Virus record (IMG/VR): IMGVR_UViG_3300030328_004119
Span: 1-24,449 of that record
Source of the DNA: a virus
Strand: one strand, 5' to 3'
Length of the DNA: 24,449 nt
The position numbers and the translations under genes were made by a program. Positions 1 to 20,543 of the stretch are shown here, piece after piece (position 1 is the first letter of the stretch; every line of letters starts with the position of its first letter). Under the pieces are notes generated by a model that worked only from the letters and a program-made list of their open reading frames with translations, was not told the DNA's origin and did not search any database.

Positions 1-1
1 A

Positions 2-1588
2 AGTTCTGGTAGAAATGTTGATATTATAATTGTTGATAGTCATATTGATCCAAATCATTCTGAATTTTCAGATGGAAATGGTGGTAGTAGAGTTATTCAA
101 GAAAATTGGTTTAAGGAGGAATATAGATCTATAGTTGATCCAACTAATGAACATAATATTCCAAACAATTATTCATATAGTAATATGACTAGTGCTCATC
201 ATGGGACTCATGTTGCAGGAATAGCAGCAGGTAATACGCAGGGTTGGGCAAGAGATGCTAATATCTATAATATAGGATTTGATAGTAGTATTGTTAGTGG
301 TGATTTTACATTTCCTGTTTGGTCTGCAATGTTATATGAATTTATACAAGCATTTCATGAAACTAAAGAAATAAATCCTGCAACTGGAAGAAAAAATCCT
401 ACAATAGTTAATGGTAGTTATACATTACAGATCGGTCCCATATATCTTTACAATTTTATACCGTCTGTTGGAACTGAAATGGTGGAATCGATTCGATATA
501 GAGGTTCTGATATTAATATTATGGGTAATTCAGATGAAAGGAAAGTAATGGTGGAAGACAGGAGAGTTTCTGTTACAGGAAACGATGATAAAGGTAATTA
601 TATACCAAACCCTCCTGCTAGAAGTGCGGAAGTAGAGAATGATATTAAAGATCTTATTGATATGGGTGTAATTATTGTTGCAGCTGCTAGTAATGATAGT
701 TTTTCAATAGATGTTGAGGGTGGTGATGATTATGATAATTTTATAGCCTACAAGAAACGTCATGAAAATGGTATCATATATAATTATCCCCTTTATTATC
801 CAAATCGAGGAGCGACTCCTGGAGCAGCAGAAGGTGTGATTTGTGTTGGTTCTGTTGGTACTAAGGTTGCTGAATATAAATCATCTTTTAGTAATTTTGA
901 TAAAAGAGTTGATATATGGGCACCTGGTTCTAATATTATGTCTAGTGTACCTCCTAGTAATTATAAGTATTCACGTACTGGAGGATCACAGCCTTGGCCT
1001 TCATCAGATTTCTATTGTGAATGGTATTTTGCCGATCCACCATTCACTCCTCAAACTTTTTCTGGTATGTATATAGTATGGGAGGGTCAGGTAGTTTATG
1101 CTAGTCAAGCTGCTTCTGGAGATACAGAACCTGTACCTGAAGGAGATAATAGGATTTTTATAGGAAATGAATTTGTATATGAAGTAGGAAGTGTAAAGGG
1201 GGATCATAGTGATGATTTTACTGTAGCATACTCATATGAAGTAAAAAGATATGGTCTTGGTAATCTAAATGGAACAAGTATGGCATCACCTCAAGTTGCT
1301 GGTTTACTTGCCTGTTTAGCAGAGCAATGGCCTACTATGAAGCAAGCAGATGCTCTTCAGTTCTTAAAAGAAGGATCTAAAAGTCAAGTGGGAAATAATT
1401 TACCAGCAGGTAATTCAGTAACTGAATCTCCATATGAAGCATTTGGTGATGGTAATAATAGGTATGTTCATTATGTTTATAAAAGACCTCAGACAGGAAC
1501 GGTTTACCCACATCCAAATTATGCGAATCGTAATGTAAATACTTCAGGAATTAAATATCCTAGAGTCCGTTATACGGTTATTAAATGA
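2..1588 (+). CDS. Subtilisin-like (S8) serine protease, virion-associated, 5'-partial
   Basis: The reading frame is open from base 2, so the gene starts upstream of the window; the first ATG at 185 is internal and would lose the catalytic Asp. Counting from base 2, 528 residues are visible. The subtilase triad is intact: Asp12 in IIIVDSHIDPNHSEF, His67 in HHGTHVAGIAAG and Ser426 in GTSMASPQVAG, with the oxyanion Asn231 in AAASNDS. The fold family is therefore secure and the enzyme is probably active. Spacing is unusual: Asn to Ser is 195 residues, against about 66 in subtilisin, because a segment of roughly 90 residues rich in Tyr, Phe and Gly sits just before the Ser motif. The C-terminus (RPQTGTVYPHPNY, YPRVRYTVIK) resembles tails of cyanophage structural proteins from memory. 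It lies directly upstream of fibre genes, so I infer a virion protease or a processing enzyme for structural proteins. Substrate is unknown. Confidence 0.88.
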   Translation, partial: SSGRNVDIIIVDSHIDPNHSEFSDGNGGSRVIQENWFKEEYRSIVDPTNEHNIPNNYSYSNMTSAHHGTHVAGIAAGNTQGWARDANIYNIGFDSSIVSGDFTFPVWSAMLYEFIQAFHETKEINPATGRKNPTIVNGSYTLQIGPIYLYNFIPSVGTEMVESIRYRGSDINIMGNSDERKVMVEDRRVSVTGNDDKGNYIPNPPARSAEVENDIKDLIDMGVIIVAAASNDSFSIDVEGGDDYDNFIAYKKRHENGIIYNYPLYYPNRGATPGAAEGVICVGSVGTKVAEYKSSFSNFDKRVDIWAPGSNIMSSVPPSNYKYSRTGGSQPWPSSDFYCEWYFADPPFTPQTFSGMYIVWEGQVVYASQAASGDTEPVPEGDNRIFIGNEFVYEVGSVKGDHSDDFTVAYSYEVKRYGLGNLNGTSMASPQVAGLLACLAEQWPTMKQADALQFLKEGSKSQVGNNLPAGNSVTESPYEAFGDGNNRYVHYVYKRPQTGTVYPHPNYANRNVNTSGIKYPRVRYTVIK

Positions 1589-1592
1589 CCCT

Positions 1593-1600
1593 AATAAATA
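1593..1600 (+). promoter_or_regulatory. T4-type late promoter motif AATAAATA
   Basis: AATAAATA matches the NATAAATA late motif reported for T4-like cyanophages (T4 itself uses TATAAATA). It begins 4 bases after the protease stop and ends 21 bases before the ATG at 1622. The sequence continues as ATAAATAAC, as at 1876 and 16270. AT-rich context makes chance matches possible; placement and recurrence are the support. Confidence 0.5.
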
Positions 1601-1621
1601 ACAATAAATTCTTTTATAAAA

Positions 1622-1879
1622 ATGCCTGAAATTAAAGTCAATATTACTGATACTGAAGAGAAGTGTTTGAATACTGTTATGGTTGGTATTGGAACATGGA
1701 CTGATAATTTTGTAAAGAATCGTGCAAGAATTGTACAGGAGGAAATATTATCAGATCTATTGAAGCATTGTAATGATAATAATATTGCAATTGCTACAGG
1801 AGTTGATGCACAGATTACTCAAGCATATGCTGTAGGAGTTGCTCATACTGCTACAACTGAATATTCTACACCTGAATAA
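1622..1879 (+). CDS. Small conserved phage protein of unknown function (85 aa)
   Basis: This 85-residue acidic protein begins MPEIKVNITDTEEKCL and appears mostly helical in the middle (NRARIVQEEILSDLLKHC), with an Ala/Thr-rich C-terminus. It has no signal peptide, membrane segment or catalytic motif. The start at 1622 is the first ATG after the protease stop and lacks a Shine-Dalgarno site; an AATAAATA motif lies upstream. The stop codon at 1877-1879 sits inside the next late-promoter-like motif. From memory, similar short proteins occur beside structural genes of cyanomyoviruses, so a minor virion or assembly role is possible, but nothing in the sequence proves it. Confidence 0.75.
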   Translation: MPEIKVNITDTEEKCLNTVMVGIGTWTDNFVKNRARIVQEEILSDLLKHCNDNNIAIATGVDAQITQAYAVGVAHTATTEYSTPE

Positions 1880-1882
1880 ATA
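1875..1882 (+). promoter_or_regulatory. T4-type late promoter motif AATAAATA
   Basis: AATAAATA overlaps the stop codon of the 85-aa gene and ends 17 bases before the ATG at 1900. The 15-mer ATAAATAACTAAAAA at 1876-1890 recurs exactly at 16270-16284 before another structural gene. Predicted initiation 5-7 bases downstream would give a leader of about 10 nt with no Shine-Dalgarno site. Confidence 0.55.
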
Positions 1883-1899
1883 ACTAAAAATAATAGATA

Positions 1900-4800
1900 A
1901 TGTCAATTAAGATATACAAAGGTGGTTCTTGGGTAACGGTAAGTCAGACTGTAAATACGGCTATTGCTAAGGCGGATACCCTTTCTATTGGTCAGACTAA
2001 TACTTCCCTTTCAGAAGCTGATAAAGCTTATTATCTTTCTTTTGTTGATGTTAATAATCCTCATGGTGCTAGAGATTATGAGCATTTCTATACTGGTGCT
2101 GGAGTAACATTTAGTGCAATTACTAATGATTTATATTTAAGTGGATCATTTAATTTATTTGGTACAGAATCTAGTGGTGATGGTGATATTCATAGTAAAG
2201 GTGGGTCTGATGGTATTTTTGCTATTCATAATGCTGGCGCAGGACATCTTTCACTTAATATAAGAGATAATAGTAATTCTAATTTAGGAATTGCCAGCTT
2301 TAGTGGAAAAGCAGGGGCAAACTCTCAGTGTAATATTTCATATTTTAGATCAAATGTTAGTCCACAAGCAACAGATACTTATAATTTAGGAGATAGTACA
2401 TCTCTTCGTTGGAATAATGTTTATGCTAATCAGTATTATGGTGATGGATCAAATTTAACTTGTGTTGGTGGTGCAACTGCTTGGCAACCAGATCAATATG
2501 AAAACTTAAAAGCAGGTGATAATGCTGGTGCTGCTGTTGATGCTGGTACTTGTTATAATATTTTTATAGGACATGAAGCGGGAAGATATACCAAAGCATC
2601 AAATGCAGGTGATACTGGAAAGGGTGATGATAATGTCTTTGTTGGCTTTATGGCAGGAAATAAGAATACTACTGGTTCTTATAATATTTTTACTGGATCA
2701 TCTAGTGGATTTTGCAATCAAACTGGGGATGCTAACATTGCACTTGGTAGGGAAGCAGGGAAAACTGTTACTGGAAGTTGTAATATATTTTTAGGTCCTC
2801 TTGCAGGTAGATGTAGTACTGGTGGTAATCATAATATCTTTATGGGTTATCAGGCAGGATGTATTAATGGGGTACATGAGGATAATATTTTCCTTGGAAG
2901 GTATTCAGGAATTAATGTAACTGGAATGTCTAATGTTGCCATAGGTAGGCAAGCATTACTTGGTGGAGGAGAAGATGCAGTTCCACTTACTGGTCAGGGT
3001 AATGTTGCCATAGGTCAGGGTAGTGGTAAATTGCTTCAAAATGGAGCTCATTCTCATAATGTTTTCTTGGGTCATTCTGCAGGACAGAATCAAACAGCGG
3101 GATGTTTCAATGTAGTTATTGGATATAATGCTAATACTGCTTGTTTAACAGAAGGTTGTCAATTAATAATCGGTATTAATGCTAATAATTGGTTATCTGG
3201 TGATAAGAATTATAATATTAAACCTGGTAAAGGTATAATCGATTGTACTGGTTCTTGTGGTACAACAGATCAAGTATTAACTTCACATAAAGTAGCAGGT
3301 ACTCCAGATAATTATTATGTAAAATGGGCAACATCTGTATCGAATTCAACTAGTGCAGATAAAGTTGGTATTGGAACTACTACTAATGAAGGTGGAGATG
3401 ATTTACAAAGTTACTATGTTCCTTTTGTTAGAGATAATAACCCTCATAATTCTAGAGATTATGAGCAATTGTATAGTGATAGTAAATTAGTTTATGATTA
3501 TAAGGCATCTGATGATTCTGGTAAAGTTGGTATCAATACTGATGTTTTAGGACAAGAACTAAATGTATTTTCAAAAGCATATGCTGGTGTAAGACTTAAG
3601 AGTTCAAGAATAGCATCTGCACCTCTGGATACCATGACCCAGATAGGTGGTTTGCAATTTGCTGATAGTGATCATACTACTTTTAATAGTGGTAAAACTA
3701 TGTCAGCAATTGTTGGCACAGTTGGTGGTGATTTAATTTTAAAAACAGGACATGATGCAACTGACAATGGATCCATTGATAGAGTTACTATTACACCAAT
3801 AGGTCATGTTGGTATAGGAACCACAAATCCAATTGCTGATGATATTAATACTGGTAAAAAAATTAAAGATTATCTTGAAACCAATACTAACGTTTTAGCT
3901 GTTGGTATCGTTACGGCACATGAATATTATGGTAATTTTAAAGGTACTATTGATTCTAGTGCAGTGGTAGTAACTGATAAAATACAGGCTAGTGATGGTA
4001 CATATGCACAAGTAGTTGATGGTGGTACTGATGGACACTTTAAGGTATTAACAGAAGGAGAACAAAGACTTCTTATTGATAATGTAGGAAAGTCTTTATT
4101 TAATTCTGATCAAGCACAAATAGCTCAATTTGAAAGAAAAAAGATTGATTCAGGTGATGGATTATGGTCAAAGATAGATATTAAAACAGCTAGAAATACT
4201 AACGAAGGTAATAAGAATAAGTCATGGATCACATTTAGTAATATTTCTATAGATGAAGTTTCTGCAATTGAATATCAACATCCAGAAATTAATAGTACTA
4301 GTGGTGCAATAACTGGTGGTAATAATTATAAATTTAAAACTTGGATTGGAAATAATCTTGGTCCTGGTACTGATGATATAATTGAAAGAATTCGTATCAC
4401 AGGAATTGGTTCACTTGCTGTTGGTGTTGGAACTCAACCATTTGATCCATCAGCAGCTTTAGATGTTAGAGTTGGAAATAAAGTTGGTGATGTTGCAAAA
4501 ATCCAATTATATAATGGAGATCAGGGTAATACCTTAACACAAACTGCAGAGATGGTTTTATCTCCTGATATTAGAGGAATGGCTGGAGTAGGTATTAGTG
4601 CAAGTAAAGAAAATGCTGCCGATTGGACAAATATAAGTGCTAATAGAGATATGTCTCTTGCATTAATGAATGTTAAAAATAATCAGAAAAAAGTACAACT
4701 TACAATTAAATCTAATAGTGCATGGGGACTTCCTAAATCTAATGGAACAATAAACTATGGAACAGATGGTCAGGTATTAAAGAGTGGTGGAGATAGTGCA

Positions 4801-7800
4801 AGTGTTTATTGGGATGATGAATCTGGTGGAAGTGGAACTGGAAATCCTGCTGGAACTAATAAACAAGTTCAATTTAATGATAATAATAGTCTTGCAGGTG
4901 CTGAAAATTTATTATTCACTAAATCAGATACTTCTCCAACTTTAATACTTAGTTCTAAAAATGACCCACCTTCATCTACTAATGGTGGTTACATACAAGT
5001 TAGAAATCCAGGTACCACTAACACCGATACAAATGCTGCAACGATTACTTCAGATGGTGGATTAGAACTAAAGAGAGCTAATCAAAGTGGACCAACTGGT
5101 GGTCCTTATATTGATTTGAAATATACTGCGAGTGACATGGATTCTCGCATTCAAATGGATGTTGGTGATGGATATATTCCAACTGGAACTACAGCTGCTG
5201 ATAAATTTTCCTCAATTACTTTCTCAACAGGTGGTGGTGGAATTTACGTACCCACTGGTCAGCCAGATGCTAATCCAGATGGTAAATTAACTGAAAAAAT
5301 ACGTATTGGAAGGGATGGTGAAATTGGAATTCAAGCTGGTAGTCAGGTATATGATGCTAGTGACGACAAAGTGCTGAATAATACTAGAAGTGCTGCTGAT
5401 ATTTATGGATCATTAGGTCAAGTATTAATGAGTAGGGGAAAAGGTGCATCTGTTTATTGGGGAAACAGTGCTGCTGATGGTCAAGCTAATACGGTTGAGA
5501 GTGAATCGGTTTCTGATAATACAGATTATATTTTAACTTTTATTGATTGGGATAATAATGCACCTAAGAATGATACTTCCCCTGCTTATAGAGGTCTCAA
5601 ATTTGATGCTGATAGGAATCTTAAATACAATCCTTCTACTGATTTATTAACTGCACCTAATTTAACCGTAACTGGTAATATAACTCTTGGTGATGCTAAT
5701 AGTGATACAACAATATTCAATTCTAAGGTAAAGAGTCATATTATACCTCACGGAACAAGTTCAGAAGATCCAGTATCAGATTATTCTCTGGGAGAAGCAG
5801 GTGCTCAATGGAATGAAGTTCATGCAAAAACATTTATTGGAGCTATAAGTGGATCAACAGACAAAGTTCAAACACAATCAAATACAGATAAAACAGATGC
5901 TTTTATAACATTTGTTGCAGCAAATCATCCAACTGCTAGTGATTCATATCTCTTTACTAATGCATTATTAAAATATACGTCACAAGGTAGTAGTGAAAAA
6001 TTAACTATTGATGGTAGTGCTGATTTAGGTGATACTATTACTGATGAAATTTCTATTAAAGGTTCACTTACTTCTACTCTTGATAGTGATGGTAAAGGTT
6101 CAATAGTACCACTTATCAATTCAGGTGTTGTATTAGCAGTATCTCTTACTACTGGTGGTACTGGAGGATATGTTATTGGTAGCTTTAAAACTACCACAGG
6201 TGGTACTGGTACTGGATTGACTGTTGAGATCACATCAATTGCATCTGGTGGTGTTGTTAATGGTATAATACTTGATGGTGCAGGTGGTAGTGGTTATACA
6301 ATCGGAGATATAGTTACCATTGATGGTGGAAATAATGATGCAACAGTTACAATCACTGATATTAAAGGTTTAGATTTTGGTAGTAGTACGAAATATTGGA
6401 GAAAGATTTATGCCAAAGAATATGTTGGTAAGTTTATTGGTACTTTAACATCAAGAAACATTGCAATGACTGGTGATGTTGCATGGGATGTTAATTTTGA
6501 TGGTAGTGATAATGTAACTAGTGCTGGAACATTAGCAACGGTTAATAGTAGTCCTGGTACTTTTGGTAGTGCTACTAAAGTGGCTACATTTAGTGTTAAT
6601 GAGAAAGGTTTAATTACATCAGCTTTAGATGTTGATATTGATTTTTCTAATGAAACTTCAGGAACAGCAAATGCATTAAAGATTAATGAAACTGATGATG
6701 ATTCTGATCATTATTTAACATTTGTTGGTGATCATGGAGTTTCTAAAGATGTTTATATGGATGATGAACTTAAGTATAATCCCAATAAAAATATTTTAAC
6801 AATTAGTAAGTTCTCTCCTGATGGAACTGCACCTGATGCTGATAATAAAGTCCCACTTAGTGCTTCTGATGGTACTTGGTCATGGGGAACTATTACAAAT
6901 ACTATTGTTAGTGGATCAAATAAGATAGTACAAGATAATACATCTGCAGAAGTAATTGATGATGGTAGTGGTACAAATCCCACTGGACACTTTAAGGTAA
7001 TAACAGAAGGAAAAGAAAGACTTCGCATCGAAAAAAATGGTAGAGTTTTAATAGGAACTGATATACCAAGTACTTCTAATTTATTGATTTATGGTCAAGG
7101 GTCGAAATCATTCACTGGTACTATTACTGCTGGTCAAGATAAAATTACAAATATTATTCTTGCAAGTGGTAGCACATTTCCTGGTGTAGATGATGTAATT
7201 ACTATTGTATCTGGAAGTAATAGTGTAGCAATTGGTAGCAACGTTAAGGTTGTAAATGTAAATATTGCAGGAGCAGAAGTTACACTTTCTGCATCATTTA
7301 CTGGAAATGGAACTGCAAATGGTGCTTCATTATCTGCTAATCCTATTGATGAGAATGGACAGACCATCAATAAACCAGCAACAATTTACCAAAATGCAAT
7401 AAGTGGAACTGGTTATAATAAGGGTTTTTATGTTGGAATTGATCATAATGATGCAAAGGGATATGTATGGAATTATGAAAATCTACCAATTATTTTTGCA
7501 ACAAATAATAATGAAAGACTTCAGATAGGAAATGTAGGACAACTTGGAATTGCGGGTGCAAATTATGGAACAGCAGGTCAGGTATTAAAGAGTGGTGGAC
7601 CTACTGGAAGTGTTGTTTGGGGTAGTATGGGTGACTTTACTTCAGGAACAACTAAAGTTGCAACAATAAAAGATCAAAGAGTGGTTGATGGTGGTGATGA
7701 TGAATTTGATAATGGAGGAACAGCTCTTGCAGGTAGTAATATCAGAGCTCTTAACACAATACATGATCCACATAATATTGGTATTGCTCTTATTGGGCAG

Positions 7801-9933
7801 CCAGAAGTTCCTTCTGTCCATGGTTTTCCAACAGTAGTTTCTGTTCCTGCAGGAACTTATAGTATTAAATGGTCAGCTCCTGCTTGGAATGTTGAAGTAC
7901 ATAATACTCAATTACAATATTCTACTGAAACACAATTTCTAACAGCATCTACGACGAAAGTACAGGGTTCTTCTGAGTTTGCTGCAACAAAGGAAACTAT
8001 GACAGCTGCAGCATGGGTAGGTGGTGATGTAGATAAAGTTATCAATCATACAGCCTCATCTTCATTTGGAAAGATTGCTTCTGTAACCTTTAATCAAACC
8101 ACTTATGTTCGAATAGTTCATTGGTGCCAAGCAGGACAGAGTAAATATGGACTTGGTTCTGCCAACTATTCTGACATTGCTGGTGATTCAATTTATACAC
8201 AAATAGAAATAGAAGATTTAACAACTGCTGTTAAAGAAGGGTCAGGAACTGGTATAAATGTTACAAAGACTGATGATAAGAGCGTTTTGTATCTACTTGG
8301 TGTTGAAAATGCATCAGGAGAAAATATTGCTAATGGTAGTGTAACATCAGGGAAAACACTATATCAAAAAACTCAAAATACCTTATTTTTCGATAGTTCT
8401 AGTGATACTCTTCGTGTACCAAAAATTAGAGGTGAATTAGTTGGTGGTAGTTCTTGGCCAGGAATACAAGGTAATCTTACGATACAAGTAAATCATCTTA
8501 TACCTAGTAGCACTACTACTGCTGCAACTGCTGGACAAAACTTGGGTGCAACTGACAAATATTGGAGTAATCTTTATGTAAGAAAAGTTAATGCTGATAC
8601 TATAACTGGAGCATTAGAAGTTGGTACAGATAATACACAAGTTTTATATACAAAAACAGTTAGTTCTAATAAAGTAGCTGCTGGTACTGATAATTTTACA
8701 TTTGTAGAAACTACCCCATCGGATGGTAAAAATAGAAGTATATTAGAATTAATTAATAGTGCTAATGATGGTTCTGGTGGAGTAGTTAAAGCATCATCAA
8801 AAGATGCTAAGAATTATGTTGAAATACATTGTGATGGTGGTATAGAGATATGTAGAACTGTATCTGACACAGGGGGAACTGGTGGAGCATTTCTTGATTG
8901 GAAAGATAATGATAGTGATGATTATGATGTTCGTTTACAATTAACAACTAATCAAGCTGGTTCAGTATGGGAGGAAGCTGATAAAGGTGGGTTATTATTT
9001 GAAACTGGTGGAAAAGAAAATCGACATATGTTGTTAACTAATGAAGGAACTTTAGGTATAACAACTTCTAATCTTGGTGCTGGTGCAATAGTTAATAAAT
9101 CTGCAAGAACATCTGGATTTGCTCCAGGATATTCTAGAGATAGTGAATCCTTTGTTGATGGTAAAGTTGCTTTAGATATTGATGGGATTGTAATGGTTCG
9201 TAGGTCTGGTGATGGAACAAATCATGAGGGTGGTCAAATAACATTTAATAGTGACGAAGATCAGATTGCATATAGTGTTGATGTTTATGGTAGTACTGTT
9301 AATAATAGTCGTTTAAGAATTGTTGATGAAAAAACAATACCTGAAGGTGAAACGAGAGGAACTCAAAGATTTGCCATGAATAGGAAAGGTGCAATAACCT
9401 TTAAGGATATTAGTAGTAGTGATGGTACTGATAATGCTAATGATGATTATGGGACAGATGGTCAGTTTTTAAAGAGTCAAGGACATGAAAATCCTCCTGT
9501 ATGGGCAGACCTTAATGCTGCTAATTTTGTCACTGGTATGATAATGATGTTTAGTGGTGCTACTGTTCCATCTGGTTGGAAATTATGTGATGGAAATAAC
9601 AACACACCAGATTTAAGGGATAAATTTATTATTGGTGCTCATTCGTATAATAGTGGTAATGGTAAATGGCAAACAAATGTTACTGGAACTTTAAGGCAGC
9701 AGGGTGGTAATAAAAATGCAGTATTGATTGGGCATAAACATACTTTCCAAGTACAAGATGGTAGTGGTGGTGATGATGGTGGTCAAATATATACTAGTGC
9801 TGATGGTGATTCAAAAGCTCGCGATACTGCATACACTGGTTATAATACGAATGGAGTAAGTACTCCTAGCCAATCAGGAACTAATAAGAACTTACCACCA
9901 TATTGGGCACTAGCATATATAATGAAAACATAG
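1900..9933 (+). CDS. Giant modular tail-fibre-like protein with Tail Collar C-terminus (2677 aa)
   Basis: This is a very large, Gly/Asn/Ser/Thr-rich virion protein. Modules seen, in order: an FVDVNNP-type unit near residue 44; about twelve N-[IV]-F-[IL]-G-x-x-A-G repeats at residues 220-430, like stacked beta-rolls of trimeric adhesins; VGIGTT motifs near 488 and 637; and GHFKV-TEG-RL units near 710 and 1695. GQVLKS-type linkers begin near 953, 1169, 1889 and 2517. W-x-x-[VIL]-[YH] motifs (LRWNNVYAN, AQWNEVHAK, YWRKIYAKE, YWSNLYVRK) occur through the chain, and a GGTGTG/GSGYT module spans about 1418-1489. Residues 2546-2677 form a phage Tail Collar/Mdp-like domain (FSGATVPSGWKLCDG, NLPPYWALAYIMKT) at the very C-terminus. 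By family knowledge this is a host-recognition fibre; N-terminal attachment and C-terminal receptor contact are inferred. No frameshift interrupts it. The ATG at 1900 follows a late motif and has no Shine-Dalgarno site. Confidence 0.88.
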   Translation: MSIKIYKGGSWVTVSQTVNTAIAKADTLSIGQTNTSLSEADKAYYLSFVDVNNPHGARDYEHFYTGAGVTFSAITNDLYLSGSFNLFGTESSGDGDIHSKGGSDGIFAIHNAGAGHLSLNIRDNSNSNLGIASFSGKAGANSQCNISYFRSNVSPQATDTYNLGDSTSLRWNNVYANQYYGDGSNLTCVGGATAWQPDQYENLKAGDNAGAAVDAGTCYNIFIGHEAGRYTKASNAGDTGKGDDNVFVGFMAGNKNTTGSYNIFTGSSSGFCNQTGDANIALGREAGKTVTGSCNIFLGPLAGRCSTGGNHNIFMGYQAGCINGVHEDNIFLGRYSGINVTGMSNVAIGRQALLGGGEDAVPLTGQGNVAIGQGSGKLLQNGAHSHNVFLGHSAGQNQTAGCFNVVIGYNANTACLTEGCQLIIGINANNWLSGDKNYNIKPGKGIIDCTGSCGTTDQVLTSHKVAGTPDNYYVKWATSVSNSTSADKVGIGTTTNEGGDDLQSYYVPFVRDNNPHNSRDYEQLYSDSKLVYDYKASDDSGKVGINTDVLGQELNVFSKAYAGVRLKSSRIASAPLDTMTQIGGLQFADSDHTTFNSGKTMSAIVGTVGGDLILKTGHDATDNGSIDRVTITPIGHVGIGTTNPIADDINTGKKIKDYLETNTNVLAVGIVTAHEYYGNFKGTIDSSAVVVTDKIQASDGTYAQVVDGGTDGHFKVLTEGEQRLLIDNVGKSLFNSDQAQIAQFERKKIDSGDGLWSKIDIKTARNTNEGNKNKSWITFSNISIDEVSAIEYQHPEINSTSGAITGGNNYKFKTWIGNNLGPGTDDIIERIRITGIGSLAVGVGTQPFDPSAALDVRVGNKVGDVAKIQLYNGDQGNTLTQTAEMVLSPDIRGMAGVGISASKENAADWTNISANRDMSLALMNVKNNQKKVQLTIKSNSAWGLPKSNGTINYGTDGQVLKSGGDSASVYWDDESGGSGTGNPAGTNKQVQFNDNNSLAGAENLLFTKSDTSPTLILSSKNDPPSSTNGGYIQVRNPGTTNTDTNAATITSDGGLELKRANQSGPTGGPYIDLKYTASDMDSRIQMDVGDGYIPTGTTAADKFSSITFSTGGGGIYVPTGQPDANPDGKLTEKIRIGRDGEIGIQAGSQVYDASDDKVLNNTRSAADIYGSLGQVLMSRGKGASVYWGNSAADGQANTVESESVSDNTDYILTFIDWDNNAPKNDTSPAYRGLKFDADRNLKYNPSTDLLTAPNLTVTGNITLGDANSDTTIFNSKVKSHIIPHGTSSEDPVSDYSLGEAGAQWNEVHAKTFIGAISGSTDKVQTQSNTDKTDAFITFVAANHPTASDSYLFTNALLKYTSQGSSEKLTIDGSADLGDTITDEISIKGSLTSTLDSDGKGSIVPLINSGVVLAVSLTTGGTGGYVIGSFKTTTGGTGTGLTVEITSIASGGVVNGIILDGAGGSGYTIGDIVTIDGGNNDATVTITDIKGLDFGSSTKYWRKIYAKEYVGKFIGTLTSRNIAMTGDVAWDVNFDGSDNVTSAGTLATVNSSPGTFGSATKVATFSVNEKGLITSALDVDIDFSNETSGTANALKINETDDDSDHYLTFVGDHGVSKDVYMDDELKYNPNKNILTISKFSPDGTAPDADNKVPLSASDGTWSWGTITNTIVSGSNKIVQDNTSAEVIDDGSGTNPTGHFKVITEGKERLRIEKNGRVLIGTDIPSTSNLLIYGQGSKSFTGTITAGQDKITNIILASGSTFPGVDDVITIVSGSNSVAIGSNVKVVNVNIAGAEVTLSASFTGNGTANGASLSANPIDENGQTINKPATIYQNAISGTGYNKGFYVGIDHNDAKGYVWNYENLPIIFATNNNERLQIGNVGQLGIAGANYGTAGQVLKSGGPTGSVVWGSMGDFTSGTTKVATIKDQRVVDGGDDEFDNGGTALAGSNIRALNTIHDPHNIGIALIGQPEVPSVHGFPTVVSVPAGTYSIKWSAPAWNVEVHNTQLQYSTETQFLTASTTKVQGSSEFAATKETMTAAAWVGGDVDKVINHTASSSFGKIASVTFNQTTYVRIVHWCQAGQSKYGLGSANYSDIAGDSIYTQIEIEDLTTAVKEGSGTGINVTKTDDKSVLYLLGVENASGENIANGSVTSGKTLYQKTQNTLFFDSSSDTLRVPKIRGELVGGSSWPGIQGNLTIQVNHLIPSSTTTAATAGQNLGATDKYWSNLYVRKVNADTITGALEVGTDNTQVLYTKTVSSNKVAAGTDNFTFVETTPSDGKNRSILELINSANDGSGGVVKASSKDAKNYVEIHCDGGIEICRTVSDTGGTGGAFLDWKDNDSDDYDVRLQLTTNQAGSVWEEADKGGLLFETGGKENRHMLLTNEGTLGITTSNLGAGAIVNKSARTSGFAPGYSRDSESFVDGKVALDIDGIVMVRRSGDGTNHEGGQITFNSDEDQIAYSVDVYGSTVNNSRLRIVDEKTIPEGETRGTQRFAMNRKGAITFKDISSSDGTDNANDDYGTDGQFLKSQGHENPPVWADLNAANFVTGMIMMFSGATVPSGWKLCDGNNNTPDLRDKFIIGAHSYNSGNGKWQTNVTGTLRQQGGNKNAVLIGHKHTFQVQDGSGGDDGGQIYTSADGDSKARDTAYTGYNTNGVSTPSQSGTNKNLPPYWALAYIMKT
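2557..3180 (+). repeat. Tandem coding repeats, NIFxGxxAG family (about 12 units)
   Basis: Within the giant fibre gene, units of about 20-28 codons repeat the core N-[IV]-[FAV]-x-G-x-x-[AS]-G: NIFIGHEAG, NVFVGFMAG, NIFTGSSSG, NIALGREAG, NIFLGPLAG, NIFMGYQAG, NIFLGRYSG, NVAIGRQAL, NVAIGQGSG, NVFLGHSAG, NVVIGYNAN and QLIIGINAN. They resemble the NTAIG-type head repeats of trimeric autotransporter adhesins and many phage fibres. Cysteines cluster between and within the units. Confidence 0.8.
4768..4791 (+). repeat. 24-base direct repeat, copy 1 (GQVLKSGG linker)
   Basis: The 24 bases encoding GQVLKSGG here recur identically at 7576-7599, in the same frame and 2808 bases (936 codons) downstream. 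Recombination between the copies would delete 936 codons without a frameshift. Confidence 0.85.
7576..7599 (+). repeat. 24-base direct repeat, copy 2 (GQVLKSGG linker)
   Basis: Exact second copy of the 24 bases at 4768-4791. The other two linker copies (starting near 5404 and 9448) have diverged at the DNA level, although the protein motif is kept. Confidence 0.85.
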
Positions 9934-9939
9934 TATAAT
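9934..9939 (+). promoter_or_regulatory. Possible -10 element (TATAAT) before the dioxygenase gene
   Basis: TATAAT directly follows the fibre-gene stop codon within TAGTATAAT; the same nine bases occur at 23666-23674. No convincing -35 hexamer lies 16-18 bases upstream, and the DNA is almost pure A+T, so this is weak. Confidence 0.25.
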
Positions 9940-9963
9940 ATAAAAATATAAAAATATAATTCA

Positions 9964-10554
9964 ATGTTTAAAGAATTGATTTGGGTCAAAAAAAATTCCT
10001 TAAGTGAAGATTTTTGTGATAAAGTAATAGAAAAATTTGAAAACGAATCAAGAAAAGGTGAGGGAAGAGTTGGTGGTGATCATAATCCTAGAGTTGATAA
10101 GTCTATAAAAGATACAACAGATCTGAATATAACAAATCTTAGTGGATGGGAAGAGGAAGATCAAATACTTTTTAATGCATTGCAAGAAGGAATGAAGGGA
10201 TATGAATCACACTTAAGAAATATTCATCCACATTGTGTTCCACAACCTGGATATTTTATTCAAGATACTGGATATAAATTACAAAAATATGAACCTAATG
10301 GTTTTTATAATTGGCATACTGATATGTCCATGACTAATAGTGAGGGAATGAGAGTTTTTGTTTTTATGTGGTATTTGAATACAATTAAAGTAGAAGATGA
10401 AGGTTATACGGAATTCTATGATGGTACAAGATTGCAACCTGAGTGTGGAAGTTTAGTATTTTTCCCTGCTACATGGACATATGTTCATCGTGGTTATAGA
10501 CCAAAGGTTTGTAAGTATTTGTGTAATGGTTGGATATATGCAAAACCATCTTGA
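9964..10554 (+). CDS. 2OG-Fe(II) dioxygenase, prolyl 4-hydroxylase-like (196 aa)
   Basis: The protein carries the double-stranded beta-helix oxygenase signature. H118-x-D120 in YNWHTDMS supplies two iron ligands and H175 in TYVHRGYRP the third; K184, nine residues later, sits where the 2-oxoglutarate-binding basic residue is expected. Supporting strands include FMWYLN, GYTEFYDG and GSLVFFPA, all typical of P4H-like phage enzymes. Length (196 aa) fits the compact phage and bacterial forms. The reaction would be Fe(II)- and 2-oxoglutarate-dependent hydroxylation; the substrate cannot be read from sequence. It lies between two giant fibre genes, so a virion protein is a plausible target (inference); a nucleic acid or host protein is equally possible. 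The start at 9964 is the first ATG and has no Shine-Dalgarno site. The TGA stop lies inside the -35 box of the next promoter. Confidence 0.87.
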   Translation: MFKELIWVKKNSLSEDFCDKVIEKFENESRKGEGRVGGDHNPRVDKSIKDTTDLNITNLSGWEEEDQILFNALQEGMKGYESHLRNIHPHCVPQPGYFIQDTGYKLQKYEPNGFYNWHTDMSMTNSEGMRVFVFMWYLNTIKVEDEGYTEFYDGTRLQPECGSLVFFPATWTYVHRGYRPKVCKYLCNGWIYAKPS

Positions 10555-10579
10555 CAAAATAGAATAGATAGTCTATAAT
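10551..10579 (+). promoter_or_regulatory. Perfect consensus sigma-70 promoter (TTGACA-17-TATAAT)
   Basis: TTGACA at 10551-10556 and TATAAT at 10574-10579 are separated by exactly 17 bases, the ideal host vegetative promoter. The -35 box contains the stop codon of the dioxygenase gene. Initiation near 10585-10587 would give a leader of about 16-18 nt before the ATG at 10603. This is an early-type promoter inside a block otherwise marked by late motifs. Confidence 0.82.
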
Positions 10580-10602
10580 TAAAAAAACTTATAGTAACTT
10601 CT

Positions 10603-10788
10603 ATGGACGAGAATGTTCTTGGTGTGGTAATTGATTTGTGTTCTCGTACATTCTTGATTAAAAGTAATCAAGGATGTGAAAAATATTTAAAATGTGAGGA
10701 TACTGATCAATTCATGAGAGTATTGAAGGTATGCACCGATCTTTTGAATGAAGATGAGATAAAATATGACTCAATACCACCTCGATAA
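10603..10788 (+). CDS. Small phage protein of unknown function (61 aa)
   Basis: The protein is 61 residues, acidic overall, with a predicted beta-strand start (NVLGVVIDLCSRTFLI) and a helix (DTDQFMRVLKVCTDLL). It has three cysteines (C13, C25 and C31) plus a fourth at C44, but no metal-binding motif I can name. The fold could be a small beta-beta-alpha domain. It is driven by a perfect sigma-70 promoter and has no Shine-Dalgarno site. Position between the dioxygenase and a giant structural gene says little about function; the promoter suggests expression early in infection. Confidence 0.7.
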   Translation: MDENVLGVVIDLCSRTFLIKSNQGCEKYLKCEDTDQFMRVLKVCTDLLNEDEIKYDSIPPR

Positions 10789-10844
10789 AAATTATTAATT
10801 TCTGCCTTACTAAATATATCATAGAAATAGATTAGAAGTCAGCG

Positions 10845-13800
10845 ATGCCACTGAATAAGCTAGATAATTTCCTAAAGAATGTAGAAGGTCGTATTCTTTA
10901 TGTCAGTCCAAGTGATTTAGATTCATCGGACAACATTACAAATGAAGGTAATTCTCAGATAAGACCTTTTAAGACTCTGCAGAGAGCATTAATTGAAGCA
11001 GCAAGATTTTCCTATCAAATAGGAAACAATAATGATTTAATAGAGAAAACTACTATATTATTAATGCCAGGGGAACATTTAATTGATAATAGACCTGGTT
11101 ATGGAATATTGAATGATGGAGGAGCTAAAGCACTGACACCTGGTGGTGTAAAAGTAGATGCATCAATTTTTGATTTAACATTAGATTCTAATTTTGATCT
11201 AAATCAAGAAGATAATATACTTTACAAATATAATAGTGTTCATGGTGGAGTTATTGTACCTAGAGGTACATCTGTTGTTGGATTAGATTTAAGAAAGACA
11301 AAAATAAGACCTAAGTATGTACCAAACCCAACAGATGATACTCCAAATTCTGCTATATTCAGAATAACTGGTGGTTGTTATTTCTGGCAATTCTCTATTT
11401 TTGATGGTGATGATACAAATGAAGTTTATATTAATAGTTCTGACACTGAAAGACCTACATTCTCTCACCATAAACTAACAGTATTTGAATATGCTGATGG
11501 TATAAACAAGTATGATAGGACTAATATAGATGATTTGAATATGTATTACCATAAGCTTTCTGTAGCTTATGATTCTGCATCTACGAGAAATATTCAAGAT
11601 AAGTACCCTGGAATTCCTACAGGGTTTGCATCAAGAAGACCAGAGTATGAAATTGTTGGTGCATTTGCATCAGATCCTATTGAAATAACTAAAGTTTATT
11701 CAGGTACAGGTGTATTTGCTAGAGCTGATGTTACGGTACAAACTAAAACTAATCATAATCTTGATGTAGGAACTCCTATCAAAATTAATGGAGTTGTTCC
11801 AGACGCTTATAATGTATCTGCTGTAGTTACAACAATTTCTGCAACTAATCCTAAAGAATTTACATATACTTTTGCTAAGTTTGATCCAGCAATACAAGCA
11901 ACTGCTGGTGATGTATCAAAGGCCACAGTAACTATTGAGACTGATACTGTATCAGGTGCATCACCATATATCTTTAACTGTTCAATGCGTTCAGTTTATG
12001 GTATGAATGGTATGAAGGCAGATGGTAATAAAGCAACTGGATTTAAATCTATGGTTGTTGCTCAGTTTACTGGTGTCTCACTACAAAAAGACGATAGAGC
12101 ATTTGTAAAATATAATAAAACAAGTAGATCATATGAAGGAATTAATATAGAACCAACATCAGGATCTGCATTATCACAAGATTCTGCTTCAACAAATCCA
12201 GCAGAAGTATATCATTTAGATTCTAATGCAATTTATAGATCTGGATGGGAAAATACACATGTTAGTATTACTAATGATGCTATTCTTCAAATAGTTTCTG
12301 TATTTGCCATTGGATTTAATAAGCATTTCTATGCTGATACTGGTGGTGATGCTTCTATTACAAACTCTAACTCTAACTTCGGACAATTTGCATTAATTGC
12401 TGAAGGATTTAAAAAAGAGGCATTTGAAAAAGATGATACGAGTTATCTAACACACATTATTACACCAAAAGCAATTGGTTCTGCTGAAGAAAATATTGAT
12501 TGGTTAAGAATAGATACCAATGAAACTGCAACTAATAAATTATATCTATTTGGATTTGAGAAAGAAGACGCTAAACCACCTTCCATAACACAGGGTTATC
12601 GTATAGGTGCTAAAAAGGATGATGAGTTATATTTGCAACAGGTACAGGATGGAACTGTATATAAAGCAAAAATTAGAATGTTGGATAATGATGGTGGTCA
12701 TACTACAAGTTCAGTAAAAGAATATTCTATTAGTTCACCATCATCAAACAAATTTGCATCAACAGTCACAAATCAACTTGCAACTGGTGAAAAAGTTCTT
12801 GTTAGAAGTTTAAGTGGTGATCTTCCTGTAAATATTGAAGAAGATACTGTTTATTATGTAATAAGAGAAAATACTACAGAATTTAAATTAGCATCATCAT
12901 TATCAAATGCTAGAATTAATGATGCAATTAGTGTTTATGGGGGATCAGATCTTAAGCTTTTAAGTAGAGTTACCGATAAAGAAAGTGGTGATGTTGGACA
13001 TCCTATTCAATGGGATGACACTAAAAACCATTGGTATATTTGTGTTTCTGCATCTGGTGCTGATAATACAATATATGCTCAATTGGCACCATTATATGGT
13101 CAGACTCCTTCGGTAACTAAGACAGAACCAACTTATGTAAAGAGAATAGAAGATTCTAGAAATATAGATGATAAGATTTATAAGTTAAGATTGGCAATTC
13201 CATCTGAAACTCTTATTGCAAAGAATCCTGAGAATGGATTTGTTTTGCAAGAGTCTAGTAAAACTTCGCATGAAGTAGTTACTGACTTTACGAGTACTGA
13301 TGATTTAGATAGATCTGATTATGATTTTGATAGAAATTTAAAATATATACGTGCTGGTTCTTATAGTAATGGTAGTCAACGTGTAACTATAGATGCCGAT
13401 AGACCACATAACTTAAAAGTTGGTGATAGTGTTGTTATTAAAAATATAAAATCAACTAATAATACTACGGGTGTTGGTAATTCTGGATACAATGGAACAT
13501 TTACAGTTAATACTGTTCCTGATAATATGTCATTCACATATCTTCCAGGAAGAGATATAGGAGCAACAGCAACAAATCCATTCTCAGGTAAGATTGATGA
13601 TAATGATCTTACTGTATCATTCCCTAGATTTGAAAGAATAGATATGCAATCTAATGTATATCTTTATAGGAATGAGATTCTTTCATCTTATAATAATGAA
13701 GATAATTCGGATGGTATATATCATGCATATCCATTAAATGCAGAAAATAACTGTCCTTCAGATGAAAAAGGATTTGGTAATTATCAATATAGTCAGAATG

Positions 13801-16277
13801 TTGTTAATTTATATCCACAACTTGATAGGGATAATAATAATGAAAATCCAAAATCAGCAAAAACAAAAGCTGTATCACAACCATTAGGTAATGTAGCAAC
13901 TAATTATCCTGAAAGAAGTTTAACAAGAGAAACCGTTGATAAACTTAATGTAAGTCTTGGTATTGGTGTAACAATTAATTCAATATCATATAGTACCGAT
14001 AGCTCAATAATTAGTTTTTCGAAAGATCATAATTTAAAGGGTTTGATGCAAGGAACCCTTACAGGTGGTAGTGGATATACTAATGGAACATATTATAATG
14101 TAAAAATATTATCTGGTAGTTCATCAGGTACTTGGTATGGAACATTAGCAACTGTTAAAGTTAGTAGTGGTTCTGTATCTGATGTTACTATTACAAATCC
14201 TGGTTCAAATTTCCCTGCAGGTACAGGTTATTTTGAAAATATTCTGGGTAGTGGTAGTAGTGCTCAACTTGCAGTTGTTGCTAATCAACTTGGTAATTCG
14301 AATAATCTTACAGTTCAATTTACAGGATCTGATGTTACCGATGATTTATATTATAGGATAACTTCAATTACTGGTGGAAATCAAATAGGTATTTCAACAG
14401 CAGTAGGAGATACGAGACCTACTCCAGATCAATATGGTATTATTGTTGGTCCTAGTATTCAAGCAGATGTTGTAATAGCAGATAATGTTGCCACATTTAC
14501 ATCTACTAATCCTCATGGATTGGTTAAAGGAAATAAATTTAGATATAATAGGAGTACTAATACTAATCGAGGAGACTTTGTTGTTACCTCAGTTACAAGT
14601 CCTACAATATTTACCTCTAAAACTACTTTAAATGATCAAAGTATAAGTAATGGATGGATTCTAAAACATGGATTGTCTGCAAATGATGAAGTTTCTTCAA
14701 GTGGTAATGAAAATTTATCTGCAAGAGGTGTAGAAATATTTAATTATGAAGGTGGAGTGTGTAAGGTAAATACAGAAACAATTGGTTCAACAACTTATGA
14801 CACAGTTGAAATTGTTTCTTTATTAACAGGTGCTGTATCAAGTTCTGCAGCAAGATTTCCACGTGGTTCTTATGTACAAATTGGTAGTGAAATTTTAAGA
14901 ATTATTAGTTCTGATTTGATAGGGAGTAGTACCAATAAGTTAAAGGTTATTCGGGGTGTTTTAGGAACACGAAAACAGACTCACCCTGACAACTCACTAT
15001 TTAAGAGTATTAGACCTGTTCCAGTTGAGTTCCATAGACCTTCTATCTTACGTGCTTCTGGACATACATTTGAATATCTTGGTTATGGACCAGGTAACTA
15101 TTCAACAGCACTTCCACAGGTTCAAGTAAAAACCATTACAGAAGACGAAGAGTTCTTATCACAATCACAAGAGAGGGCTTGTGGTGCAGTTGTTTATACT
15201 GGTATGAATAATAAGGGTGACTTCTATATTGGTAATCAAAAGAAATCTGCTCTAACAGGTGAGGAGGTTACATTTGACACTCCAATTCCAACTATTGCTG
15301 GAGAAGATCCTGCAAGATTGAGTGTTGTATTTGATGAAGTTACTGTTAAAGAAAGATTAGTTGTTGAAGGTGGTAAATCTAATACATCACTATCCGAATT
15401 TAGTGGACCAGTAACATTTAGTGAAACTTCAGATGTTCAAATAAAGTCACCACTTAGGCTAAAAAATGATACACAATCTGAAAGTGTATCTACTGGTGCT
15501 CTTCAAGTTGAAGGTGGTGTTGGTATTAAAAAGAACTTATGGGTTGGTGGTACACTAAATGTTAATAGTGATACTACACTTAAGAACACCAAAATAACTG
15601 GTAATTTGGAAATTGATACTTCAGAAGGAAGTTCTGGTACTATTAAAATTGGTAATTTAACACCTCAACGTGTTGTTTTTGTTGGTACAGGTAGTACATT
15701 AACAGATAATGCTAACTTTCATTATAATGAAAGTTTGGATATTCTTCATGTAGGTGGTATGCTCTCTGTCAACGAACCAGCAGCAGATGGAACAGCAATC
15801 CGATGTAAGGCATCTAATGGGTCTAATTCGGTACACCAACTATGGGGTCCTTACAATGCTGATAGAATGGAAATGAAGGATGTTGGAACTGCAGGTGATT
15901 ATGACCTTGTAAATACAGGGAATAATAATGGAATAAGATTCTTTGACGATGCTACTGGTATTAAATTTCTTGCTGGTTGGGATGGGAGTGGTAATGTTCA
16001 AAGTAGAATGCATATAGCGGGTGATACTGGTATTATTACGATAGAAAAGGAACTGCGTTGTAAAGATGATATTACTGCTTACTATTCATCTGATATAAAC
16101 TTGAAAGATAATATCTCACCTATCAAACAGGCACTAGATAAAGTTAAATCAATTAGTGGTAATACATTTGATTGGAATGCAATAAGGTACGAGAAATTAG
16201 TACCATTACTAATTGAGTCTATTAAAGAACTCTCTGCTAAAGTTGAAAAACTAGAGCAACACATATCAGATAAATAA
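10845..16277 (+). CDS. Large virion structural protein, beta-helix-like N-terminus, shortened S74-like C-terminus (1810 aa)
   Basis: Residues 17-75 (ILYVSPSDLDSSDN, IRPFKTLQRALIEAARF, TTILLMPGEHLIDNRPG) match the opening of phage and bacterial right-handed beta-helix proteins (pectate-lyase or DUF1565 style) and of large cyanophage virion proteins. The middle is a long series of beta-rich modules, including a GGSGYTNGT unit at about 1070-1130 related to one in the 2677-aa protein. The end resembles the Peptidase_S74 intramolecular chaperone: SSDINLKDNISPI supplies Ser1749 and Lys1754, spaced like the endosialidase Ser-Lys dyad, then ALDKV, SGNTFDWN and a coiled-coil helix (KLVPLLIESIKELSAKVEKLE). 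The usual segment with the G-x-I-A-Q-E-V motif is missing. By family knowledge the domain trimerises the fibre and may cleave itself before Ser1749. No clear late motif precedes ATG 10845; the gene may be read from upstream. Confidence 0.85.
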   Translation: MPLNKLDNFLKNVEGRILYVSPSDLDSSDNITNEGNSQIRPFKTLQRALIEAARFSYQIGNNNDLIEKTTILLMPGEHLIDNRPGYGILNDGGAKALTPGGVKVDASIFDLTLDSNFDLNQEDNILYKYNSVHGGVIVPRGTSVVGLDLRKTKIRPKYVPNPTDDTPNSAIFRITGGCYFWQFSIFDGDDTNEVYINSSDTERPTFSHHKLTVFEYADGINKYDRTNIDDLNMYYHKLSVAYDSASTRNIQDKYPGIPTGFASRRPEYEIVGAFASDPIEITKVYSGTGVFARADVTVQTKTNHNLDVGTPIKINGVVPDAYNVSAVVTTISATNPKEFTYTFAKFDPAIQATAGDVSKATVTIETDTVSGASPYIFNCSMRSVYGMNGMKADGNKATGFKSMVVAQFTGVSLQKDDRAFVKYNKTSRSYEGINIEPTSGSALSQDSASTNPAEVYHLDSNAIYRSGWENTHVSITNDAILQIVSVFAIGFNKHFYADTGGDASITNSNSNFGQFALIAEGFKKEAFEKDDTSYLTHIITPKAIGSAEENIDWLRIDTNETATNKLYLFGFEKEDAKPPSITQGYRIGAKKDDELYLQQVQDGTVYKAKIRMLDNDGGHTTSSVKEYSISSPSSNKFASTVTNQLATGEKVLVRSLSGDLPVNIEEDTVYYVIRENTTEFKLASSLSNARINDAISVYGGSDLKLLSRVTDKESGDVGHPIQWDDTKNHWYICVSASGADNTIYAQLAPLYGQTPSVTKTEPTYVKRIEDSRNIDDKIYKLRLAIPSETLIAKNPENGFVLQESSKTSHEVVTDFTSTDDLDRSDYDFDRNLKYIRAGSYSNGSQRVTIDADRPHNLKVGDSVVIKNIKSTNNTTGVGNSGYNGTFTVNTVPDNMSFTYLPGRDIGATATNPFSGKIDDNDLTVSFPRFERIDMQSNVYLYRNEILSSYNNEDNSDGIYHAYPLNAENNCPSDEKGFGNYQYSQNVVNLYPQLDRDNNNENPKSAKTKAVSQPLGNVATNYPERSLTRETVDKLNVSLGIGVTINSISYSTDSSIISFSKDHNLKGLMQGTLTGGSGYTNGTYYNVKILSGSSSGTWYGTLATVKVSSGSVSDVTITNPGSNFPAGTGYFENILGSGSSAQLAVVANQLGNSNNLTVQFTGSDVTDDLYYRITSITGGNQIGISTAVGDTRPTPDQYGIIVGPSIQADVVIADNVATFTSTNPHGLVKGNKFRYNRSTNTNRGDFVVTSVTSPTIFTSKTTLNDQSISNGWILKHGLSANDEVSSSGNENLSARGVEIFNYEGGVCKVNTETIGSTTYDTVEIVSLLTGAVSSSAARFPRGSYVQIGSEILRIISSDLIGSSTNKLKVIRGVLGTRKQTHPDNSLFKSIRPVPVEFHRPSILRASGHTFEYLGYGPGNYSTALPQVQVKTITEDEEFLSQSQERACGAVVYTGMNNKGDFYIGNQKKSALTGEEVTFDTPIPTIAGEDPARLSVVFDEVTVKERLVVEGGKSNTSLSEFSGPVTFSETSDVQIKSPLRLKNDTQSESVSTGALQVEGGVGIKKNLWVGGTLNVNSDTTLKNTKITGNLEIDTSEGSSGTIKIGNLTPQRVVFVGTGSTLTDNANFHYNESLDILHVGGMLSVNEPAADGTAIRCKASNGSNSVHQLWGPYNADRMEMKDVGTAGDYDLVNTGNNNGIRFFDDATGIKFLAGWDGSGNVQSRMHIAGDTGIITIEKELRCKDDITAYYSSDINLKDNISPIKQALDKVKSISGNTFDWNAIRYEKLVPLLIESIKELSAKVEKLEQHISDK
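16269..16276 (+). promoter_or_regulatory. T4-type late promoter motif GATAAATA
   Basis: GATAAATA overlaps the last codons and stop of the 1810-aa gene and ends 14 bases before the ATG at 16291. It lies in the 15-mer ATAAATAACTAAAAA (16270-16284), identical to 1876-1890. The predicted leader is only about 6-9 nt. Confidence 0.55.
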
Positions 16278-16290
16278 CTAAAAAGAAATA

Positions 16291-18312
16291 ATGGCAAATT
16301 ATACTAAGTCATTCAATTTTAGAAATGGGGTACAGGTTGACGATGATAATTTCGTTATAAACCCTAGTGGATTAGTAGGAATAGGAACTTCAGAACCAAA
16401 TAAAGAACTTGATGTTCTGGGAGATAGTAGAGTTTCTGGAATTGCTTCTTTTAATCATATTGGGGCGGTAGGAGTTGTAACTGTTGGTACAGCAATTAAG
16501 TTAGATGCTTCCACTGGAATTATAGAAGCAACTGGATTTAAAGGTAGTCTTTCTGCAGCAGATGGAATAGTTGCTATTACTACTGCTGGTTGGACACAAC
16601 ATGTAGTTGGTTTATCAACCGAAGCTAATGTTGGTATTGGAACAACTGAATTTCGTAAATACCAACTCCAAATAGGTAAAGATCCTGAAATTGATGTGGG
16701 TGTTGGTATTACTGAAGGAAATCTTACTGTAAGTGGATTAACAACTACTAAAAACTTCTTTGCATCTGGAGTATCTACTTCAGTAGGACTTTCTACATTT
16801 AAGGATGGTGTATATGTTTCTGGAGTATCAACATTTGCAGGAATTACAACTGTAACTGGAGATACTTTATTTGCTAAGGATGTTACTGCATCTGGTATTT
16901 CTACTCTCAATAATGTTGTTGTTGGTGGTGCTACAACAGAATTGGTTGTAGGTGGTGATACAAGAGTTACTGGTGTTATTACTGCACATGTTCTTGCCTC
17001 AGATACTTTTGTAAATGAACGTCGTATTCCTTTTGTTGGTGCTGCTGGAACATTAAGAGAATCTTCCGACAAATTAACTATTAGTGCTGATGGTGGTAGT
17101 ATAACTGCTCAGTATCTTACTGCAGATGCTATCACCGCCAACGCTAGTGTTAGTGCAGCAAGTTTTGTTGGTAGTGGTGCACCATTAACATATATTTCAC
17201 CAGAAAACTTTAATAATAATGGAATTGGTACAGTTAAAGGACTAGAGATATCAGGAATTAATACTACTGGTATTCTTTATGTCAGAGATACCGTAGGTAT
17301 TGGTACTACTGATCCATTAAGTGATATTGGAATTAAGAAAGATAAAGACTCATTTGTTCAATTTATTGGTCAAACTGGAGTATCAACAGTAAGTATTGGA
17401 CAATCTATTGGTATTGGTAGAAGCACTGCTGTTTTAGAATTTGGATCATCTTCTCGTACTTTTGATATTATTAATAATGATACTGGAGATGTAAGATTTG
17501 GAATACATGGTGGTCCTATTGATGATCCTGGTGCTGGTATTCATACAGGAGACTTTAAGTGGATTAGAAGAAATACTAATACCTTAATGACTCTTACTGG
17601 TATTGGTGGTAGTTTAGGTATTAATGAAGAGAATCCTCTACATCCATTACATGTTACTGGAGTTTCAACATTTACTCAGAAGGCATGGTTTGGTAATGAT
17701 ATACATGTAGCAAATAATATAAATTGTGATGGTACAATTACTGGAACCTTTACATTACAGAATCCTATTGAATATGATATAAATTCTGCAGGTGTAAGCA
17801 CTGTTGGTAGTTTGTATATATTTGACGGTGTTTCTAATAGACTTGGTGTTAATACCACTGAGATTACTACTGGTGCAAAAATGCAAGTAGATGGTTCAGG
17901 ATTATTTAAATCTTCTGAAGGTGCTACTGTTTCTGTTGGTATTAATACGGATACACTAGATACACAATATCCATTATCTGTACGTGGTCATGTTAAAGCA
18001 TCTACAATTACTGGATGGAGTAAACCAGATCAAGTAGGTGCTGGTGTAACATTACAATATAATGGTAATGATAAAATAGCATCTGTTGAATATGGTGCAA
18101 ACATAACTGGTATTTCGTCTGCAAGTACTGGAGTCAAGGTTGGTACTGCTGCTACTCTTGATGCTGGTGGTCTTAGAAGTGTTGGTGTAGTTACTGCAGC
18201 AGGTGGATTTACAAGTGGTACTGGAAATCCAGTTCAAATAAGTGTAAATAACACTGGTACCACACTAACATTTACTGTTGGTACTAAAACTGCTACCCTT
18301 ACACTGACTTAA
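16291..18312 (+). CDS. VGIGT/SGVSTF-repeat virion structural (fibre-like) protein (673 aa)
   Basis: The N-terminus (ANYTKSFNFRNGVQVDDDNF) followed by LVGIGTSEP at residues 28-36 is a pattern I recognise from cyanomyovirus structural proteins; VGIGTTDP recurs at 335-342. A second short repeat of the type [AVI]-[ST]-G-[VI]-[SN]-T starts near residues 158 (ASGVST), 176 (VSGVSTF), 200 (ASGIST), 320 (ISGINT) and 455 (VTGVSTF), consistent with repeated beta-hairpins in a fibrous trimer. No enzyme motif, signal peptide or S74 domain is present; the chain ends in alternating hydrophobic strands (TLTFTVGTKTATLTLT). It probably forms a short fibre or a fibre-associated virion protein. The start at 16291 follows a late motif and has only a weak AGAAA upstream. 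The next gene begins 3 bases after its stop, so the two are likely co-transcribed. Confidence 0.82.
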   Translation: MANYTKSFNFRNGVQVDDDNFVINPSGLVGIGTSEPNKELDVLGDSRVSGIASFNHIGAVGVVTVGTAIKLDASTGIIEATGFKGSLSAADGIVAITTAGWTQHVVGLSTEANVGIGTTEFRKYQLQIGKDPEIDVGVGITEGNLTVSGLTTTKNFFASGVSTSVGLSTFKDGVYVSGVSTFAGITTVTGDTLFAKDVTASGISTLNNVVVGGATTELVVGGDTRVTGVITAHVLASDTFVNERRIPFVGAAGTLRESSDKLTISADGGSITAQYLTADAITANASVSAASFVGSGAPLTYISPENFNNNGIGTVKGLEISGINTTGILYVRDTVGIGTTDPLSDIGIKKDKDSFVQFIGQTGVSTVSIGQSIGIGRSTAVLEFGSSSRTFDIINNDTGDVRFGIHGGPIDDPGAGIHTGDFKWIRRNTNTLMTLTGIGGSLGINEENPLHPLHVTGVSTFTQKAWFGNDIHVANNINCDGTITGTFTLQNPIEYDINSAGVSTVGSLYIFDGVSNRLGVNTTEITTGAKMQVDGSGLFKSSEGATVSVGINTDTLDTQYPLSVRGHVKASTITGWSKPDQVGAGVTLQYNGNDKIASVEYGANITGISSASTGVKVGTAATLDAGGLRSVGVVTAAGGFTSGTGNPVQISVNNTGTTLTFTVGTKTATLTLT

Positions 18313-18315
18313 GAT

Positions 18316-20517: not shown

Positions 20518-20542
20518 AAGACCCAATACAGGGGTCTTTTTT
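20518..20542 (+). terminator. Rho-independent terminator
   Basis: AAGACCC (20518-20524) pairs with GGGTCTT (20532-20538) around a 7-base loop, followed by a T run ending at 20542. It stands between the structural block and the helicase operon and reads only on the + strand. Confidence 0.87.
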
Positions 20543-20543
20543 A

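Follow-up and report, generated by a model that had tools for sequence, protein, structure and literature searches.

Genes at the locus

The window analysed here is the whole stretch of DNA, 24,449 nucleotides long, from a virus of marine cyanobacteria. Genes around the locus match families of T4-like phages; they include those for a tail fibre of 1810 aa, a tail protein, a helicase, and a DNA methyltransferase. Upstream of the fibre gene lie a 2OG-Fe(II) oxygenase gene and a small gene of the DUF7294 family, with a host-type promoter sequence at the junction of the two (Table 1).

Table 1. Genes, promoter elements, and late-type motifs considered in the window
Feature	Position	Strand	Basis or remark
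Late-type motif AATAAATA	1593..1600	+	precedes ORF at 1622
Late-type motif AATAAATA	1875..1882	+	precedes 2677-aa ORF at 1900
2OG-Fe(II) oxygenase gene, 196 aa	9964..10554	+	ORF and domain match; unrelated genes here in other relatives
-35 box TTGACA	10551..10556	+	sequence; kept in relatives
-10 box TATAAT	10574..10579	+	17-nt spacing; kept in relatives
Expected transcription start	10585..10587	+	inferred solely from distance to the -10 box
DUF7294 gene, 61 aa (PF23966; PHROG 662; T4-GC 29)	10603..10788	+	Pfam E 3.5e-15; PHROG; homologues
Late-type motif ACTAAATA	10809..10816	+	36 nt before fibre ATG; core TAAATA
Tail fibre gene, 1810 aa	10845..16277	+	PHROG 529 tail fiber protein
Late-type motif GATAAATA	16269..16276	+	precedes tail protein ORF at 16291

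Judged by its sequence, the 61-aa ORF is a genuine gene, and its profile score of 56.2 bits against a Pfam cut-off of 27 places it in the DUF7294 family. The label T4-GC 29 is used in the records of P-SSM2, P-HM1, S-SM2, and P-HM2, in the last of which the gene is PHM2_028. By tblastn, DUF7294 occurs in 43 phage records (by record name, 28 Synechococcus, 10 Prochlorococcus, and 5 Marine), and IMG/VR holds 24 loci. A profile search of seven genomes was positive for six, Syn9, P-SSM4, and P-RSM4 among them, and negative for S-PM2. In the S-8S55 record (L043 2501-2629), the gene is unannotated, though both its reading frame and its promoter are present.

The AlphaFold model of the protein is confident (mean pLDDT 91.6), and no confident fold match was obtained, the top PDB matches in Foldseek being FtsH periplasmic domains with E values of 0.085 and above. 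Structural alignment with VIA-align returned eukaryotic ribosome chains (Z at most 6.1) and FtsH N-domains (Z at most 4.7), a range in which similarity may mean only a common arrangement, and neither was taken to indicate a function. Six matches in a viral library reached E 0.001 or better, and the five that carry names are uncharacterized cyanophage proteins. A host relative was not found in genome contigs using one strict peptide pattern, which is weak evidence. The proposal of the first-pass annotation that the product is a regulator or host-takeover protein was not borne out, since DUF7294 has neither a known function nor a confident fold match; the place and conservation of the gene may point to an early, host-directed role.

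A probable host-type promoter and its conservation

The site had been described as an exact sigma-70 consensus whose -35 box shares bases with the preceding stop codon, and a sequence scan of the window confirmed both points. TTGACA-N17-TATAAT on the plus strand (10551-10579) matches at all 12 box positions, falls within the 16-18 nt between boxes expected of sigma-70-type promoters, is separated by 23 nt from the start codon of the 61-aa ORF, and is the sole 12/12 site in the window. The TGA at 10552-10554 lies inside TTGACA and is the stop codon of the oxygenase ORF. It is very improbable that this is a chance match in AT-rich DNA. Weaker promoter-like sites are indeed no commoner than in shuffled sequence (97 seen vs 100.9 expected in window positions 1-20000), but only 0.03 exact sites are expected per window, 3 of 100 dinucleotide shuffles contained one, and the conservation of the site across diverged phages already contradicts an accidental origin. 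Because weaker sites are not enriched, the case for a promoter consists of the exact match together with its conservation, and on these sequence grounds the promoter before DUF7294 is very probably real.

Conservation was assessed in the 24 IMG/VR loci and in 22 of the 43 phage records, most of the other records being second or near copies. After one locus without upstream DNA (L033) had been dropped, 46 sequences including the window were reduced to 33 non-redundant loci, and each was scored by the best site within 130 nt upstream of DUF7294. Exact sites were found in 12 loci, and scores of 11, 10, 9, and 8 in 10, 3, 3, and 5 loci, respectively. At least 11 of 12 positions were therefore matched in 22 of the 33 loci, compared with 1 of 117 control ORFs of at least 100 aa from the same loci, none of which had an exact site; among 3300 shuffles, 13 reached 11 and none reached 12. 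Eleven loci score 10 or less, eight of them 9 or less, and these eight include P-SSM2, P-TIM68, S-PRM1, and several single-cell genomes. P-SSM2 carries a 10/12 site approximately 675 nt upstream, directly before piuC, which is the gene preceding DUF7294. Outside the 33-locus set, the distant relative Syn9 carries an exact site ahead of gp21, at 18628-18656 of NC_008296.2, and the best sites of P-SSM4, P-RSM4, and P-HM2 score 10. In bases 1-36828 of S-SM2 (plus strand), no site other than that ahead of DUF7294 comes within one mismatch of the consensus.

The first-pass annotation had asked for both boxes to be conserved where the flanking sequence has diverged, and this pattern was found: spacers and flanks differ widely between loci, and the hexamers are kept. 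Mean information content is 1.80 and 1.67 bits in the two boxes, 0.36 in the spacer, and 0.12 upstream, for 25 loci picked for scoring at least 10/12, a choice that favours the boxes. The expectation that a small gene is served by a strong host-type promoter is likewise supported, the gene being DUF7294.

The sequence GGTAA occurs just 3′ of the -10 box, near the expected transcript start, in 10 of 29 DUF7294 promoters vs 2 of 30 other sigma-70-like sites, L083 and L087 being excluded from the latter. Its bearers are L042, L043, L045, L053, L054, L055, L057, L096, and L097, with L046 having it at another offset; they belong to Synechococcus phages, Syn9, and P-SSM4.

The genes upstream of the promoter differ between relatives. 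In six close relatives of the window, 26-29 of the 29 promoter bases and 172-177 of the 186 gene bases are identical, vs 58-89 of 240 bases further upstream; similarity begins approximately 60 nt before the gene in five of them, and in the sixth it begins at the promoter. In 8 of 25 loci (window included), a frame of at least 200 open codons ends at the TGA within the -35 box, and in Syn9 the frame ending there has 839 open codons. In several lineages whose upstream proteins are unrelated, this TGA closes a long open frame, and the annotated upstream genes of S-SM2 and Syn9 stop exactly there.

Late-type motifs and the stretch up to the fibre gene

Motifs of the form N[AC]TAAATA stand ahead of the window ORFs at 1622, 1900, 10845, and 16291. 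According to the accessible part of PMC2984593, early genes of cyanomyoviruses are thought to be read from sigma-70 sites by the unmodified host polymerase, and late genes from NATAAATA. The TAAATA core is present at a distance of 20-60 nt ahead of the fibre ORF in 28 of 30 loci vs 7% of shuffles, where the fibre is taken as the longest ORF after DUF7294, where L037 and L051 (short ORF) and L034 (contig end) are left out, and where the rate is favoured by the core having been chosen after these loci were inspected. It precedes 9 of 97 ORFs of at least 150 aa in general, and, among annotated plus-strand genes in the first 50 kb, 11 of 57 in S-SM2 and 9 of 66 in Syn9 vs 2.1 expected in each. A strict scan for NATAAATA misses the fibre motif of the window, where the form is CTAAATA; this variant, rather than the published one, is often found before the fibre gene (the window, L014, L015, L017, L042, L045, and L049).

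Before DUF7294 itself, the core was found in 1 of 33 loci, and neither NATAAATA nor the core occurs there in the window or, in all, in 32 of the 33. The nearest late form is the -10 region of the window, TATAATTA, which agrees with the late consensus TATAAATA at all but one letter. This near match speaks for a promoter used both early and late, with expression of the middle type, such as has been proposed for psbA and others in S-PM2. Overlapping early and late elements have been described for cyanophage psbA (PMC5931967) and for middle genes (PMC2984593), as far as the accessible parts of these papers go. A dual promoter is nevertheless quite unlikely here, given the near-general absence of the core and the variation of the bases 3′ of TATAAT from lineage to lineage. 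As TATAATTA is only one letter from TATAAATA, some late use of the DUF7294 promoter may occur.

DUF7294 and the fibre gene are 56 nt apart in the window, and a strict scan detected no terminator between them. These features would suit a promoter that mainly feeds the fibre gene early or continuously, with DUF7294 as a passenger or leader ORF, and the first-pass annotation had raised early transcription into the 1810-aa gene. Such a role is unlikely and that claim is less well supported, considering that a late-type motif of its own precedes the fibre gene, that the promoter travels with DUF7294 rather than with the fibre gene, and that Synechococcus phages place up to approximately 1.6 kb of other genes between the two, with a terminator in 4 of 24 loci (S-SKS1, S-B43, Bellamy, and S-SM2; strict scan). 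Since this interval showed no terminator in the window, read-through from DUF7294 into the fibre gene may still take place.

The stretch between the presumed early and late promoters holds tRNAs, cpeT, and small ORFs in many relatives, and DUF7294 alone in the window. In 10 of 29 relatives scanned, the interval from DUF7294 to the fibre gene contains between one and four tRNA genes; the annotated stretch of Syn9 has four, and a tRNA scan of the window found none. The same island of Syn9 also has a second exact sigma-70-like site (L091 19075-19104) with an 18-nt spacer, 50 nt before gp23. Further downstream in the window, a hairpin with a T run resembling an intrinsic terminator (20518-20538) is directly followed by an extended -10 box, TATGCTATAAT (20547-20552), ahead of the helicase ORF at 20574; by its sequence, the region 20518-20552 is probably where the late block finishes and the next unit begins.

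A probable early gene within the late block

The reading that we favour, with a probability of roughly three in four, is that a host sigma-70 promoter works early and has DUF7294 as its first gene, amid late genes that have separate gp55-type motifs. Host RNA polymerase, in its unmodified form and carrying the main sigma factor, would recognize the site, and a transcript of early infection would open with DUF7294 inside the late structural block. Surrounding late genes would be read from their own gp55-type motifs, N[AC]TAAATA, and the motif just 3′ of DUF7294 would serve the fibre gene at a later time. Where cargo is present behind DUF7294, the early promoter may cover it as well, and the island in the window would have been reduced to DUF7294 alone. 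Promoter activity, early firing, and use of the late motifs are all deduced from the sequence, and early expression of DUF7294 fits the account of cyanomyovirus sigma-70 promoters given in the accessible part of PMC2984593.

Features of both kinds, early promoters and the gp5 hot spot, are already known. The DUF7294 promoter shares its hexamers, spacing, orientation on the gene strand, and short leader with the sigma-70 early promoters of T4-like cyanophages such as S-PM2 and Syn9 (PMC2984593, accessible part), and exact or one-off sites number approximately 10 to 36 per genome in 16 genomes, whereas the reversed pattern gives 0 to 8. Unlike those promoters, it is surrounded by late structural genes and, across the group, goes with one small gene. 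Like the sigma-70/gp55 overlap at psbA (as seen in the available portion of PMC5931967), it is a conserved promoter of the host type ahead of a non-structural gene in the same phage group, but here the clear late motif is separate, approximately 230 nt downstream and before the next gene. In Synechococcus phages, the neighbourhood of gp5 is a gathering place of genes and tRNAs (PMC3037559, in the part available). DUF7294 with its promoter occupies the same place in S-SM2, Bellamy, S-SKS1, Syn9, and others, where it flanks the tRNA-bearing stretch towards gp5; the window differs in having no tRNA and only DUF7294 between the promoter and the fibre gene. The open literature searched, mostly in excerpt, yielded no description of a conserved promoter and DUF7294 heading the hot spot with a paired late motif, and a search by the name DUF7294 and by locus tags from phages other than P-HM2 gave nothing relevant.

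More tentatively, the arrangement may be a portable module, consisting of a TGA-bearing -35 box, the host promoter, DUF7294, cargo, and a late promoter, that forms an early island in the late block and exists to express DUF7294 as a constant, early, host-directed gene. In such a module, the -35 box would supply a stop codon, so that upstream genes could be swapped there without harm to the promoter.

The proposed early promoter singles out one small protein, common to many T4-like cyanophages including Syn9, P-SSM2, P-SSM4, and P-HM2, as the likely product of an early gene that would not be expected at this location. A further suggestion is that the tRNA and metabolic genes of the gp5 hot spot are switched on separately from the tail genes that surround them.
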